NCBI GenBank assembly: GCA_036489885.1
Contig: DASXEW010000003.1
Location: forward strand, 1,922,001 to 1,986,000
Direction of reading: 5' to 3'
Length of the DNA: 64,000 nucleotides
Source: Candidatus Baltobacteraceae bacterium
GTDB lineage: Bacteria > Vulcanimicrobiota > Vulcanimicrobiia > Vulcanimicrobiales > Vulcanimicrobiaceae
The notes below the pieces were generated by a model. It worked only from the letters and a program-made list of their open reading frames with translations. It made no database searches and had not been told where the DNA came from. This document shows positions 54,941-62,801 of the stretch, one piece after another (the stretch's first letter is position 1; every line of letters begins with the position of its first letter). The translations under genes were made by a program, and so were the position numbers.

Positions 54941-54958
54941 GCGTAGGCTCGCCTACGC
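54941..54958. repeat. Perfect inverted repeat at the tRNA-Pro 5' end
   Basis: GCGTAGGC-TC-GCCTACGC is an 8-base perfect inverted repeat whose last base is the first base of the tRNA. A two-base loop is too tight for a full RNA hairpin, but a shortened stem is possible. It may terminate hup transcripts (without a T tract) or mark a processing site. Confidence 0.45.
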
Positions 54959-55034
54959 GGGCGGTAGCGCAGCTTGGTAGCGCACCAGTCTGGGGGACTG
55001 GGGGCCGCAGGTTCAAATCCTGTCCGCCCGACCA
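54958..55034 (+). tRNA. tRNA-Pro (anticodon GGG)
   Basis: A full cloverleaf: acceptor CGGGCGG/CCGCCCG, D arm with AGCGCAGC..TTGGTAGCGC, anticodon stem CCAGT/ACTGG with loop CTGGGGG giving anticodon GGG, variable GGGCC and T arm with TTCAAAT. The CCA end is encoded (55032-55034). It decodes CCC and CCT proline codons. Confidence 0.96.
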
Positions 55035-55126: not shown

Positions 55127-55996
55127 ATGACGCCGGAACAAATCCGAGAAGGCTTTCTCAAGAGGCGCTACATTGCCGGCGACGAGTTCACGACGGCATT
55201 TCAGCTGATGCTCGCGCTCGAAAAGCCGCTCCTGATCGAAGGGCCGGCCGGCGTCGGTAAGACCGAGAGTGCGAAAGTGCTCGCGGACGTCCTTGGCACG
55301 AAGCTGATCCGTCTGCAGTGCTACGAAGGCCTCGACGCCGCCAGCACGTTGTACGAGTGGAATTATCCCAAGCAGCTCCTGCGCATTCGCTTGACGGAAA
55401 ACGAAGACGTGTCCGCCGATGCGCGCGAGGCTCAGATCTTCGGCGAAGAGTTCATGCTGCGACGTCCGCTGCTCGAGGCGATTTTACAAGATCGGGCTCC
55501 GGTGCTCTTGATCGATGAGATCGATCGGTCCGACGAAGCCTTCGAAGCGTTTCTGCTCGAAGTGCTCGGCGAATTTCAAGTCACGATTCCCGAGCTCGGG
55601 ACCGTTCGCGCAAAAGAGCGCCCGGCCGTCATCATTACCTCAAACCGGATGCGCGAGCTTTCCGACGCGCTGCGGCGGCGTTGCCTCTACCTATGGCTCG
55701 ATTACCCCGACTTCGAGCGCGAGATTCAGATTCTCACGACACGCATTCCCGATATCGACGCTCGTCTCGCAAAGCAGATCGCAACGTTCATGCGCTTCCT
55801 GCGCGATCAACCGCTCCAGAAAGTCCCGGGCGTTGCGGAAGCGCTCGATTGGGGGATGGCGCTCGTCAAGCTGCACCGCAGCGCACTCGACGAAGCCACG
55901 CTCGAGCTTACGCGCGGCTGCGTCATCAAAGTACAGGAAGACTGGGAATTTCTGCGTTCACATCGCGACCGTTATCTCTCCGCGCTTGGAGCCTGA
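55127..55996 (+). CDS. MoxR-type AAA+ ATPase (CoxD-like)
   Basis: A 289-residue AAA+ protein: Walker A GPAGVGKTESAKVLAD near 39-53, Walker B VLLIDEIDRSDEAFEAFLLE, sensor-1 VIITSNRMRELSDALRRRC and the LDYPDFEREIQIL motif. CoxD/MoxR proteins act with VWA partners to mature metal enzymes such as CO dehydrogenase. The downstream VWA gene overlaps by 11 bases. No coxMSL genes are in the window, so the client is unknown. Confidence 0.9.
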   Translation: MTPEQIREGFLKRRYIAGDEFTTAFQLMLALEKPLLIEGPAGVGKTESAKVLADVLGTKLIRLQCYEGLDAASTLYEWNYPKQLLRIRLTENEDVSADAREAQIFGEEFMLRRPLLEAILQDRAPVLLIDEIDRSDEAFEAFLLEVLGEFQVTIPELGTVRAKERPAVIITSNRMRELSDALRRRCLYLWLDYPDFEREIQILTTRIPDIDARLAKQIATFMRFLRDQPLQKVPGVAEALDWGMALVKLHRSALDEATLELTRGCVIKVQEDWEFLRSHRDRYLSALGA

Positions 55997-57056
55997 TTCC
56001 GGAACGCTGAGCGGACGGGTAACGGTTTTTTGCCGCTATCTTCGCGAACGTGGATTTCGCATCGGGATCGGCGAGACGCAAGATGCTTTGCGTGCGATCG
56101 AGACTACCGGCGTCGAGGATCGCGCGCGATTTCGAGCGGGTTTGCGCGCGGTCATCTGCGGCAAGCGCGGCGAACTTCTCATCTTCGATCAAGTCTTCGA
56201 AGCATTCTTTGGCGATCGCGAACTGCTCGAACGCGAATACCTGCGGCCCTCGCCGGAGGTCGAAGCCCTGCCCATACACGAGGATTGCGATCAAGACCGC
56301 AATCCGAATTGGGAGGCGCTCGTCGCAAAATACAGCGCCGCGGCCGGGCGCTCGGAGCCTCCGGCAATCGCGCGCGAACAAAGCGGCGACCTACAGCGTT
56401 CGGTCGATGCCCTCGTGCGCACCGTCGCGCTCGGACACTCGCGCAGATGGAGGCCGCAGGCCCGTGGTGAGCGCTTCGATTTGCGTGGAACCTTACGTGC
56501 GAGCTTGCACTCGGGTGGCGACCCGGTACGCGTGCGTCACCTCGGTCACCCGCGACGTAATCCACGCTTCATGCTCGTCATCGACGGCAGCCGATCGATG
56601 ACGGAGCACGCTGAAAGGATTCTGCAATTTGCGCATGCGCTCGTACGCCGCAGCCGCCGTGCACGCGTCTTTGTATTCAGCACGGAGTTGCGTGAGATCA
56701 CGCACGAGCTGCGCCGTTCGAAGCTGCCGGATCTCGGCGAAGCGTGGGGCGGCGGTACCCGCATCGGCGCGACCTTGCGACAGTTTGTGCGCAGGTTCGG
56801 CGCCTCGCTCAATGATGATACCGTGACGTTCGTATGCAGCGACGGTTTGGATTTCGGTTCGCCGGACGTGTTGGCTGAGGCCGCTGCTGAGTTGCACCGG
56901 CGCTCGGCGGCATTTATTTGGGTTAATCCTGACGCGGGCGTTCCGGGCTATGTTCCCGCGACGCTCGGGATGCGCGCCGTCTTACCGTTTACGAACGCGC
57001 TAGTCAGCACGACCGAGCTGCCGAAGCTCGCAACGATCGTGCGACGAGCGCTCTAG
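55986..57056 (+). CDS. VWA-domain protein, CoxE-like
   Basis: A 356-residue protein. The N-terminal part (FCRYLRERGFRIGIGETQDA) matches CoxE-type VWA proteins, and the VWA fold has the MIDAS start VIDGSRSM with later TFVCSDGLDFGSPDVLAEAA. TTG at 55986 is the best-placed start; there is no clear ribosome site, so coupling to the moxR gene is likely. An earlier in-frame start lies well inside that gene. It ends 2 bases before the convergent lipoprotein gene. Confidence 0.82.
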   Translation: MEPDSGTLSGRVTVFCRYLRERGFRIGIGETQDALRAIETTGVEDRARFRAGLRAVICGKRGELLIFDQVFEAFFGDRELLEREYLRPSPEVEALPIHEDCDQDRNPNWEALVAKYSAAAGRSEPPAIAREQSGDLQRSVDALVRTVALGHSRRWRPQARGERFDLRGTLRASLHSGGDPVRVRHLGHPRRNPRFMLVIDGSRSMTEHAERILQFAHALVRRSRRARVFVFSTELREITHELRRSKLPDLGEAWGGGTRIGATLRQFVRRFGASLNDDTVTFVCSDGLDFGSPDVLAEAAAELHRRSAAFIWVNPDAGVPGYVPATLGMRAVLPFTNALVSTTELPKLATIVRRAL

Positions 57057-57058
57057 GT

Positions 57059-58126
57059 CTAGGGATTCCCCTCCTGCCAATTGACGTTGGGGAGTCCTTG
57101 ACCATACGGGTTGCCCGTTCCGACCAATATCCAGATGGTCGTATGCGAGTAGATCGGAATCTGCGCGGGCAGTCCAAGGAAGGCCTGATACGTGCTCGAT
57201 TGGGTCACGCATGGCGTGACGACGGTATTTACGCTCGTCGTTCCGCAAGCGGAGTATGAGTTGTAGTTTGCAGGTGTCGACGTGTAGATCTGAACGGGTC
57301 CGCTTAGCGGCCCGAAGCTGTTCGCGCTAAACGAGATTCCCCAAATGTCGAAGAAGGTTTGCAGCGTGAACGGTGATGCATAGTTGCACAACTGTGTCGG
57401 CGGATTGCCACTGGCAGCGCCGCAGTTCTGCGGAGTATTGTAGGCGGTCTCAACATGGATCATGCCGCTGTTGTCGTGCGCGTGCATGTCGTAGTAACAA
57501 TCGGCGTAATAGCTCTGGTTCAGAACGCCGTTGATGTTATCGCTGGGTGGATCCGGATTGACCATGCCGACGCCGGCAGGTATGCCGAGCTCCTGTCCGT
57601 TGTAGAACACGCCCAAGAAGAAATGGACGTGATAGTCATTCGACATGGAGGCTGCGCACGGAACGCCGTCGACGACTCCATTGTTTACCGGGCCTTGGCC
57701 GCCACCGCTTGATGTAGCTCCCTGATCCCCCGGCTCGAGATTTCCGCCGTGCATGTAGCCGCGGCTATCGGGCGCCGTGTTGATGACGAGCAGCGGATTG
57801 ACATTCCCATTCGTCTGGCCGTCCCCGACTTGAAGAGTCGTCGTCGAGGGCGTCGGCGTTGCTGGCGGCGGAGTCGGCGTTGGGGTTGGACTCGGCGTTG
57901 CGCCCTTCGGCGTCGCCGTTGGTGTTGGCGAGGGGGTTGCGCCGACGGGGGTCGGCGACGGCGTCGCACCTACCGGGGTTGCTGTAGGCGCAACGGTTGG
58001 AGCAACCGGATTTCCGGGTGCGCTCGGCGCGCTCGGAGTGCTTCCTCCTCCGCCGCCGCACGCAACGAGAAGTCCGATTCCGGCGACGAATGAAAATGCG
58101 GCAAGGATCTTCGATAGTTTTCGCAT
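57059..58126 (-). CDS. Lipoprotein with PT-rich linker and conserved His-motif domain (copy 1)
   Basis: A 355-residue lipoprotein: signal peptide MRKLSKILAAFSFVAG then lipobox LLVAC with Gly-rich start GGGGG, a Pro/Thr/Ser linker with repeated GATPSPTP units, and a C-terminal domain of about 220 residues. That domain holds DYHVHFFLGVFYNGQ, IPAGVGMV, CYYDMHAHDNSGMIHVET, FTLQTFFDIWG and paired cysteines. I recall similar HxH...NG..vPaGiG...HtHD.SGxIHxE...FFDIWG proteins in other phyla, without known function. ATG at 58126 starts the signal peptide; the longer frame is non-coding. The conserved histidines suggest metal binding. Confidence 0.85.
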   Translation of the reverse strand: MRKLSKILAAFSFVAGIGLLVACGGGGGSTPSAPSAPGNPVAPTVAPTATPVGATPSPTPVGATPSPTPTATPKGATPSPTPTPTPPPATPTPSTTTLQVGDGQTNGNVNPLLVINTAPDSRGYMHGGNLEPGDQGATSSGGGQGPVNNGVVDGVPCAASMSNDYHVHFFLGVFYNGQELGIPAGVGMVNPDPPSDNINGVLNQSYYADCYYDMHAHDNSGMIHVETAYNTPQNCGAASGNPPTQLCNYASPFTLQTFFDIWGISFSANSFGPLSGPVQIYTSTPANYNSYSACGTTSVNTVVTPCVTQSSTYQAFLGLPAQIPIYSHTTIWILVGTGNPYGQGLPNVNWQEGNP

Positions 58127-58180
58127 GGTCAGGTACAGCGTAGTCTGGCCTGGCGCAATCAACGAGTCGCTTGCAGCCCC
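58127..58180 (-). promoter_or_regulatory. Leader of lipoprotein copy 1, shared with copy 2
   Basis: Read toward the gene, GGGGCTGCAAGCGACTCG, then GACTACGCT and a start context CCATGCG are also found, with the same spacing, ahead of copy 2 (59193-59244). No Shine-Dalgarno sequence is seen in either. The shared block may hold the promoter and a regulator site. Confidence 0.45.
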
Positions 58181-58211
58181 ATTTTTCTGGGACTTAAGAA
58201 CCAAGCCAGCG

Positions 58212-59192
58212 CTACGGATCCCCTTCAACCCAATTGATATTGGGAAGGCCTGAACCCGACGATCCAGCTGGATTTGGTGTGCCGATGACAAACCAGTACA
58301 CGGAGTGCGAATAGATCGGCTGCGCTTCGAGCTGTGAAAGCGAGCCGGTGTACGGCGCGTATGACGTCGACGTCGTAGAACACGGCACGATCACGTCGTT
58401 AGAGCTCGCTCCGCACGCTGAGTACGAGTTGTAGCCCGCAGGCGTCGTGTAGATAAGCACCGGGCCGGTCAGCGGGCCAAAGTTGGATGTCGTGACGTTG
58501 ATGCCCCAGATGTCGAAGAATGTTTTCAACGTGTAGGGCGCGGCGTAGTTGCATTCTTGCGTCGGCGGATTTCCGCTGGCGGCACCGCAGAGTTGCGGGG
58601 TATTGTATGCCGTCTCGACGTGAATCATGCCGCTATCGTCGTGGACGTGCATGTCGTAATAGCAGGACGCAGTCCAGCTTTGATTCGGAACGGCTCCCGC
58701 CGTTGGCCCAGGCACCGGATTGCCGTTGTACACGTACTGATTGGGCGGATACGGGTCTACCATGCCAACGCCGGCTGGTACGGATACTTGTTGTCCGTTG
58801 TAGATAATGCCGACGAAGAAATGCACGTGGTAGTCGCCGGACATTGACGATGCGCACGGGATTCCGTCAACCGCGCTTCCTTGGCCGCCACCAGCCGATG
58901 TCGCGCCACTTTGTCCCGGCATGAGATTGCCACCGCCGCTATAGCTGTGCGTATTCTGCGCCGTCGAAATCAACAGCGATTGCGCGCTGCCGTTTGTCTC
59001 ACCGTAGCCCACGCCGATCGTCGTCGCCGCCGGAGCCGGCGTCGACGTCGGACCTTGTGAGGGACCCGCCGGGTTCGATCCCCCCGGAGTGGTCGGCGCG
59101 CTCGAACCGCCGCCTCCTCCGCCGCAAGCGGTAAGGAGTGCGATTCCTATAGACAAGCCAAATGCAAGAAGAGACTTCGGCGGCTTTCGCAT
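58212..59192 (-). CDS. Lipoprotein with conserved His-motif domain (copy 2)
   Basis: A 326-residue paralogue of the downstream gene: signal peptide MRKPPKSLLAFGLSIGIA, lipobox LLTAC, GGGGGG, a shorter linker, and the same domain with DYHVHFFVGIIYNGQ, VPAGVGMVDPYPP, CYYDMHVHDDSGMIHVET, TLKTFFDIWG and paired cysteines. It lacks the PT repeats of copy 1. The two genes are 85 bases apart in the same direction, and the shared leader shows duplication of gene plus control region. An outer-surface metal- or ligand-binding role is inferred. Confidence 0.85.
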   Translation of the reverse strand: MRKPPKSLLAFGLSIGIALLTACGGGGGGSSAPTTPGGSNPAGPSQGPTSTPAPAATTIGVGYGETNGSAQSLLISTAQNTHSYSGGGNLMPGQSGATSAGGGQGSAVDGIPCASSMSGDYHVHFFVGIIYNGQQVSVPAGVGMVDPYPPNQYVYNGNPVPGPTAGAVPNQSWTASCYYDMHVHDDSGMIHVETAYNTPQLCGAASGNPPTQECNYAAPYTLKTFFDIWGINVTTSNFGPLTGPVLIYTTPAGYNSYSACGASSNDVIVPCSTTSTSYAPYTGSLSQLEAQPIYSHSVYWFVIGTPNPAGSSGSGLPNINWVEGDP

Positions 59193-61716: not shown

Positions 61717-62091
61717 ATGATCCTCAGGCTGACCACGCTGCTCGCGCTGGCTTCGATCTTGTCCTCGTGTGGCGTCGCTCACACGCCGGAACGCCTTGCG
61801 GATCTAACGACGCGCGCGCTCTACGAGGACAATCATGACGCCGCCGTCGCCAATTTCGATGAGCGCTTAAAGTTGCGCGTCACACGCGAACAGGTCGGCG
61901 CGATCTCGGATCAGATGCACTCCCTCGGCCGTTATAAGGGTCTGAGCACGCTCCACGCCGACGATCCCGGGCGTTTTCGATACAAGGCGAACTTCGACCG
62001 CGGAACCATGATCGTCATGGTGATGATAAATCCGGCCGGCCATATCGCTGCATATCGCGTCAAGTCAGCCGGCCGACTTCAATCCGAGTAA
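61717..62091 (+). CDS. Small lipoprotein, DUF3887-like
   Basis: A 124-residue lipoprotein: signal peptide MILRLTTLLALASILSSC with lipobox LSSC, then a small alpha/beta domain: LTTRALYEDNHDAAVANFDE, LGRYKGLSTLHADDPGRFRY, and MIVMVMINPAGHIAAYRV. The pattern resembles DUF3887 domains, which occur fused to hydrolases or alone. ATG at 61717 begins the signal peptide; the longer frame in the GNAT gene is not used. It overlaps the end of the convergent larC-like gene by 32 bases. Confidence 0.8.
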   Translation: MILRLTTLLALASILSSCGVAHTPERLADLTTRALYEDNHDAAVANFDERLKLRVTREQVGAISDQMHSLGRYKGLSTLHADDPGRFRYKANFDRGTMIVMVMINPAGHIAAYRVKSAGRLQSE

Positions 62092-62710
62092 CGTTCGGCA
62101 TCGGAAAATCGCTGCGGCCGGCGCCGTAGCCGCTTAATTCAACATGCAGATCCGGACGAAATCCGGGCCGCTCGACGAGCGTCGAAAGAATCGCTGCACC
62201 GGTTGTCGTGACCATCTGTTTGCCGCTGGTCAAGCTGAGGTCGTTTGGAAACGCCGAGCAGAAGCAACGCTCGATGCCAAAGAGATCGAGTGCAATGCAC
62301 GTCGCCGCGATATCGATGATCGCGTCAATTTGACCGATGGGATGAAAGTGCAACTGCCCCTCGGCGCGCGCTAAGCGCTCCGCAATAGTCGTTGCCAGGT
62401 CCACTTGCGGTTTCGATAGCCGCGAGCACTTGAAGATGTCGATGACTTCGGAGAGCGTGCGACGTCCGGGCGGATGCCGATGCGCTTCCGTATGTTCGAA
62501 GTGATCGTCCTCACCCGGAATGACGACATCGATGTACGTTGCCGCGACTCCGCGGCGTTGCGTGCGCTCGCGCACAATTGACCACCCGTCGACTGGAATC
62601 GTCTCGAGCATCTTGACGATTTCATCAAGATTCGCGCCTGCATCGACAAACGCGCCTAAAAGCATGTTGCCGCTGGCGCCGCCGATCAAGTCAAAAAACG
62701 CTGCGCGCAC
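62060..62710 (-). CDS. LarC-like nickel-pincer cofactor protein, N-terminal half only
   Basis: A 216-residue protein matching the LarC1 part: AAFFDLIGGASGNMLLGAFV, the His-rich EHTEAHRHPPGRRTLSEVID, LHFHPIGQIDAIIDIAAT and SGYGAGRSDFPMPNVTRIEV. LarC normally has about 400 residues and inserts nickel into the pincer cofactor of lactate racemase; the C-terminal half is absent here. The usual GDM after GxSG reads GNM. GTG at 62710 has AGGGA 8 bases upstream and is preferred to the TTG at 62731. larA, larB and larE are not seen in the window. Confidence 0.82.
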   Translation of the reverse strand: MRAAFFDLIGGASGNMLLGAFVDAGANLDEIVKMLETIPVDGWSIVRERTQRRGVAATYIDVVIPGEDDHFEHTEAHRHPPGRRTLSEVIDIFKCSRLSKPQVDLATTIAERLARAEGQLHFHPIGQIDAIIDIAATCIALDLFGIERCFCSAFPNDLSLTSGKQMVTTTGAAILSTLVERPGFRPDLHVELSGYGAGRSDFPMPNVTRIEVGRLT

Positions 62711-62801
62711 CTGAGAAATCCCTGGGTGCAAATCTCATCCTGCTCTTAGACCATTTGAGGCCATTCTGGGAGCCCGAACAGTTAATAGAGACAGGTAAGC
62801 A

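Follow-up and report, generated by a model that had tools for sequence, protein, structure and literature searches.

Two neighboring genes in the window (the whole 64,000-nucleotide stretch of DNA analyzed here) encode paralogous lipoproteins, P0002 and P0001, whose C-terminal domain is a member of a large, unnamed family of bacterial proteins described in none of the public family libraries searched. Four histidines and one glutamate of this domain are lost together in a set of natural copies that keep the conserved residues of the fold. These five residues are retained in both lipoproteins and are candidate ligands of a metal ion. Gene neighborhoods in several branches of the family contain genes for copper chaperones, heavy-metal efflux pumps or mercury resistance.

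The lipoprotein pair

P0002 and P0001 are both complete and are encoded in tandem, in that order, on the minus strand (Table 1). The initial annotation had described twin paralogous lipoproteins at this position, and its coordinates proved correct. The motifs it quoted (HVHFF, NGQ, PAGVGM, CYYDMHxHDxSGMIHVE and FFDIWG) are all present in both proteins, which also have the histidines of the conserved motifs in common. Each protein has an N-terminal signal and a lipobox ending in cysteine (MRKLSKILAAFSFVAGIGLLVAC and MRKPPKSLLAFGLSIGIALLTAC), as predicted for bacterial lipoproteins by sequence. The TTG start assigned to P0001 by the open reading frame finder, which gives a protein of 410 residues, was dropped in favor of the ATG at 58126, which yields a typical signal peptide and the lipobox LVA-C23.

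Table 1. Coordinates of the two lipoprotein genes and their features in the window.
Feature	Coordinates	Strand	Basis
P0002, HTHD/HxE-family lipoprotein of 326 aa, first of the two tandem genes	58212..59192	-	lipobox LTA-C23; family profile E 5.2e-41
P0001, 355-aa paralogous lipoprotein with Pro/Thr repeat linker, 85 bp downstream of P0002	57059..58126	-	lipobox LVA-C23; family profile E 2.3e-40
P0002 signal peptide and lipobox cysteine, residues 1-23	59124..59192	-	sequence
P0001 signal peptide and lipobox cysteine, residues 1-23	58058..58126	-	sequence
P0001 low-complexity Pro/Thr/Ala linker from lipid anchor to domain	57839..58042	-	sequence; mostly gap in P0002
P0002 H122-V-H124 (family positions 39 and 41)	58821..58829	-	alignment to family
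P0002 M-H182-V-H184-D-D-S-G-M-I-H191-V-E193 (family positions 77, 79, 86 and 88)	58614..58652	-	alignment to family
P0001 H166-V-H168 (family positions 39 and 41)	57623..57631	-	alignment to family
P0001 M-H215-A-H217-D-N-S-G-M-I-H224-V-E226 (family positions 77, 79, 86 and 88)	57449..57487	-	alignment to family

P0001 and P0002 are 64% identical, with dN of 0.26 and dS of 1.93 over the aligned codons (dN/dS about 0.14). These values indicate that their resemblance has been held by selection on both proteins, rather than reflecting chance or a recent duplication. Thus, both proteins are under purifying selection and the duplication is old. Six extracellular cysteines are common to the pair (residues 157, 210, 235, 247, 294 and 306 of P0001; residues 113, 177, 202, 214, 260 and 271 of P0002). 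The insertions of the two proteins share two extra cysteine pairs, which suggests two further disulfides particular to this branch.

The lipoprotein pair ends against a convergent gene that resembles a VWA-domain protein. A MoxR-type AAA ATPase gene and this gene (together CoxD/CoxE-like by eye) occupy positions 55127–57056 on the plus strand and converge on the pair. A LarC-like open reading frame, also identified by eye (nickel-pincer cofactor synthesis), is located at 62060–62731 on the minus strand, and the sole tRNA found in the window, tRNA-Pro (ggg), is at 54958–55034 on the plus strand.

An unnamed domain family and its predicted fold

A profile search of GTDB contigs identified at least 558 loci of the HTHD/HxE domain family. 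P0002 and P0001 match the A3 profile of diverse members with E-values of 5.2e-41 and 2.3e-40, respectively, with both being rows of that profile themselves. Among the matches listed, the GTDB record titles name Eremiobacterota, Gemmatimonadaceae, Caballeronia, Paraburkholderia, Trinickia, Alicyclobacillus and Pseudonocardia, as well as metagenome-assembled genomes labelled Chthonomonadaceae and Polyangium, titles that may be wrong. Members are also encoded in plasmid records of Gemmatirosa, Mycolicibacterium, Streptomyces, Pseudarthrobacter, Acidovorax and Anoxybacillus, where they are annotated as "hypothetical protein" with one exception, named skfF. Hence, the look-alikes in other phyla without an assigned function, of which the initial annotation spoke, are real. 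Archaeal and Chloroflexi relatives may exist as well. The family is near-universal in the taxonomic family of the window (59 of 61 genomes) and sporadic elsewhere, with members in 7 of 121 genomes of the order of a Pseudonocardia genome, 6 of 121 of the phylum of a Gemmatimonadaceae genome, and 6 of 150 of the order of a Caballeronia genome. The nearest members of the window's lipoprotein clade are from the same phylum, and a third member is encoded elsewhere in the same genome (G000:C1:758087-758512).

No match to a characterized family, which would have spoken against the initial annotation, was obtained. P0001, P0002 and 38 diverse relatives gave no match above the cut-off in searches of Pfam, NCBIfam and PDB sequences, and comparison of the predicted fold gave no significant match. 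An HMGL-like Pfam match of P0001 (E 0.018) was discarded as below the cut-off and far under the curated score. Matches to the SslE lipoprotein metalloprotease (NF037973; 13.2 and 9.5 bits against a curated cut-off of 3000 bits) involve only the signal and linker, and weak selenolipoprotein matches in NCBIfam are confined to the same regions. Literature searches turned up no relevant report of the motif or of a family matching it. No relatives were found in viral contigs or phage records, and a viral origin was therefore dropped.

The AF2 model of P0002, based on 76 sequences (pLDDT 74, pTM 0.77), gave meaningless Foldseek matches, and a compact member, L125, was folded instead (pLDDT 89, pTM 0.86). 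The L125 model consists of strands at residues 38–48, 51–53, 77–82, 118–121, 124–126 and 140–145, shorter extended pieces at 66–67 and 69–70, and one helix (90–97). The first strand carries the HxH motif, and a turn connects the short strands on or beside which the HTH/HxE motifs are found. Foldseek comparison of this model with the PDB gave no match below an E-value of 0.001. Many of the best matches are beta-grasp domains (E at least 0.12, for a model with pLDDT of 89), and the fold may, with low certainty, be beta-grasp-like. The weak resemblance to the transcobalamin beta domain (5no0), the "putative metal binding" protein RUMGNA_00854 (3u7z) and SAMP1/MoaD/Urm1 lies in the order of strands with one central helix. 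Target-normalized TM-scores against these short targets are 0.42–0.58; however, the Foldseek E-values are about 0.1–0.8 and the sequences do not match.

Five residues lost together

Together, all retrieved loci yielded 169 distinct domain copies, and these were aligned to the family profile. Histidine at positions 39, 41, 79 and 86 and glutamate at position 88 are found together in 140 of these copies, and all five are retained in P0002 (H122, H124, H184, H191 and E193) and P0001 (H166, H168, H217, H224 and E226). Lipoproteins of Burkholderiaceae (L105–L141, e.g. L110:4476-5486) contain two domains, an N-terminal one without this five-residue site and a C-terminal one with it, and thus represent a natural active/inactive domain pair. 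The 25 degenerate copies in the alignment are the first domains of these proteins. In the intact copies, 20 columns show conservation of 90% or more, and of these the degenerate copies lose only H39, H41, H79, H86 and E88. Intact copies were defined by these five residues, whose presence in 140 of 140 is therefore by construction, but this selection does not account for precisely these five of the 20 columns being lost. The replacements are tyrosine at 39 and 41, valine, aspartate or alanine at 79, mostly arginine at 86 (the histidine is retained in 3 of 25) and mostly aspartate at 88. The remaining 15 conserved columns are retained in 20–25 of the 25 degenerate copies, with H43, D80, the two family cysteines and W104 present in all 25 and H77 in 20. 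As the residues of the fold are kept, this joint loss indicates that the five residues work as one unit, although it may represent a single evolutionary event since the degenerate copies belong to one lineage.

The two family cysteines are both present in 142 copies, both absent from 21, and found singly in 1, the pattern expected for a disulfide. Most simply, the alignment would be explained by a single His4-Glu metal site within a domain braced by a disulfide, and we consider it highly probable that the five residues bind a metal. The ligand set is reminiscent of cupin and germin metal sites (HxH...E...H), which also combine several histidines and one glutamate with an HxH motif. However, the order of motifs in our family is HxH, then HxH, then HxE, and no cupin was found in Pfam scans up to an E-value of 10 or among the 50 Foldseek matches listed.

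The initial annotation had suggested either a surface metal centre or a metal-dependent enzyme. The joint loss of the four histidines and the glutamate, and the metal context of other subfamilies (see below), indirectly support the centre, and nothing found favors an enzyme over binding. The strict invariance of the five residues, together with the neighboring H77 and W104, would fit a catalytic His4-Glu centre (oxidase, hydrolase or dismutase-like) acting on an extracellular substrate as well as it fits binding, and one subfamily, in hut operons, sits among enzymes. We nevertheless regard catalysis as unlikely, since the domain is small, matches no enzyme family or fold, and occurs in many unrelated contexts, of which those on actinobacterial plasmids are resistance islands that encode transporters and regulators. 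Still less probable is a purely structural role, in which the five residues would bind a metal (e.g. zinc) for stability only and the real function would be to bind a ligand or protein through another part of the domain. The additional, site-less copy retained by Burkholderiaceae, with its fold residues intact, does imply that the fold can be of use without this site, yet this same survival argues against a metal needed only for structure. Moreover, site-less copies were found only beside an intact copy and the site is nearly always retained in full-length domains that stand alone, which indicates that the site matters for function.

Gene context and proposed role of the domain

The canonical members from Eremiobacterota, most of which have an N-terminal membrane anchor by sequence, are linked to a SCO1/SenC gene. 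In 28 of 38 cases, this gene is 0.7–3.5 kb away, where about 1% would be expected per gene by chance, although the genomes share ancestry. Their recurrent neighborhood consists of genes for a TonB-dependent receptor, an epimerase, a TlpA-like thioredoxin, SCO1/SenC and an ECF sigma factor, with Nramp in several; Nramp, TlpA-like and multicopper-oxidase genes are near some of these members. SCO1 linkage was also tested for the window pair and rejected, as SCO1 is within 5 kb of none of the 52 listed non-canonical copies (0/52). Neighbor scans of the pair and its lipoprotein subfamily revealed no consistent metal-gene neighbors. The SCO1/SenC copper chaperones (PF02630) are likewise extracytoplasmic, but differ from the domain family in sequence, with no PF02630 match for P0001, P0002 or 38 family members in Pfam. 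The ligands of SCO1 are provided by CxxxC plus a histidine, whereas the candidate ligands here are four histidines and one glutamate.

On actinobacterial plasmids, a P-type ATPase or merA/merB is located within 6 kb of the family member at 9 of 11 loci; a tenth has CopC and one has none of these. No P-type ATPase, mer or CopC annotations are present in five control stretches (250 kb in total) of the same plasmids. The sixth control stretch, from Curtobacterium pC1a, is full of metal genes, and this plasmid is therefore not independent evidence. On two Pseudarthrobacter plasmids (L150 and L151), an unnamed family gene directly follows merA-merB in mercury-resistance operons. Copies on Comamonadaceae plasmids come after DUF305 and HiPIP genes. 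Family members on plasmids adjoin genes of copper islands (DUF305, CopC or multicopper oxidase), from whose products they differ by Pfam, and represent the unnamed "hypothetical protein" of those islands. On the Anoxybacillus plasmid pDSM15939_1 (L148:4396-6432), the domain is fused to the C-terminus of an ABC permease annotated as skfF, in a skf sporulation-killing-factor operon. Neighbor scans of chromosomal actinobacterial members, and of mixed other members, showed no common theme, so that support for a metal context in Actinobacteria comes from the plasmid loci.

A second single-domain subfamily, which includes the third copy in the window's own genome, is found beside a WYL regulator, with hutH, hutU and hutI in several genomes (L197, at G000:C1:752087-764512, L201, L205, L206 and L210). 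Branched-chain amino-acid ABC genes adjoin the own-genome copy. A WYL regulator together with hut genes does not obviously point to metals, and these neighbors would fit a domain that binds a non-metal or metal-chelate ligand, such as free or metal-complexed histidine or imidazole, but such a ligand is very improbable for the family, as this evidence is confined to the hut subfamily and the SCO1, P-type ATPase and mer contexts need no histidine catabolism.

Overall, gene context points to extracytoplasmic metal handling, with copper first. We propose that P0001 and P0002 are lipid-anchored, extracytoplasmic proteins, whose small, disulfide-braced and beta-rich C-terminal domain would hold one transition-metal ion outside the cell through the four histidines and the glutamate. 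Copper would be the most likely metal, with a chance that we judge to be about even. At the cell surface, the domain would buffer or deliver the bound metal rather than act as an enzyme, a choice toward which the evidence leans slightly. In the related gene sets, the metal may be taken up or passed on beside SCO1-type chaperones or heavy-metal efflux pumps. As a whole, this explanation of a cell-surface buffer or delivery protein with a His4-Glu site, probably for copper, is evenly balanced in our estimation. The same role as in the linked subfamilies is plausible for the window pair because P0001 and P0002 retain all five residues. The window subfamily without metal neighbors, the hut subfamily, and the themeless neighbors of chromosomal actinobacterial members stand against a copper buffer.

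More tentatively, the domain may define an unrecognized and widespread extracytoplasmic family for copper, or another soft or borderline metal, with a beta-grasp-like fold bearing a mononuclear His4-Glu site, found with SCO1 in Eremiobacterota, on actinobacterial metal-resistance plasmids, and as one subfamily of surface lipoproteins. Within one bacterial family, almost all genomes encode the domain, which is also scattered over several other phyla, including on mycobacterial resistance plasmids, and has neither a family model nor an assigned function in the libraries searched. Mutagenesis can start from the five residues singled out by the naturally site-less copies, and the neighboring SCO1 and P-type ATPase genes suggest which metal to test first. 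The role of hundreds of "hypothetical proteins" can thus be put to a direct test.
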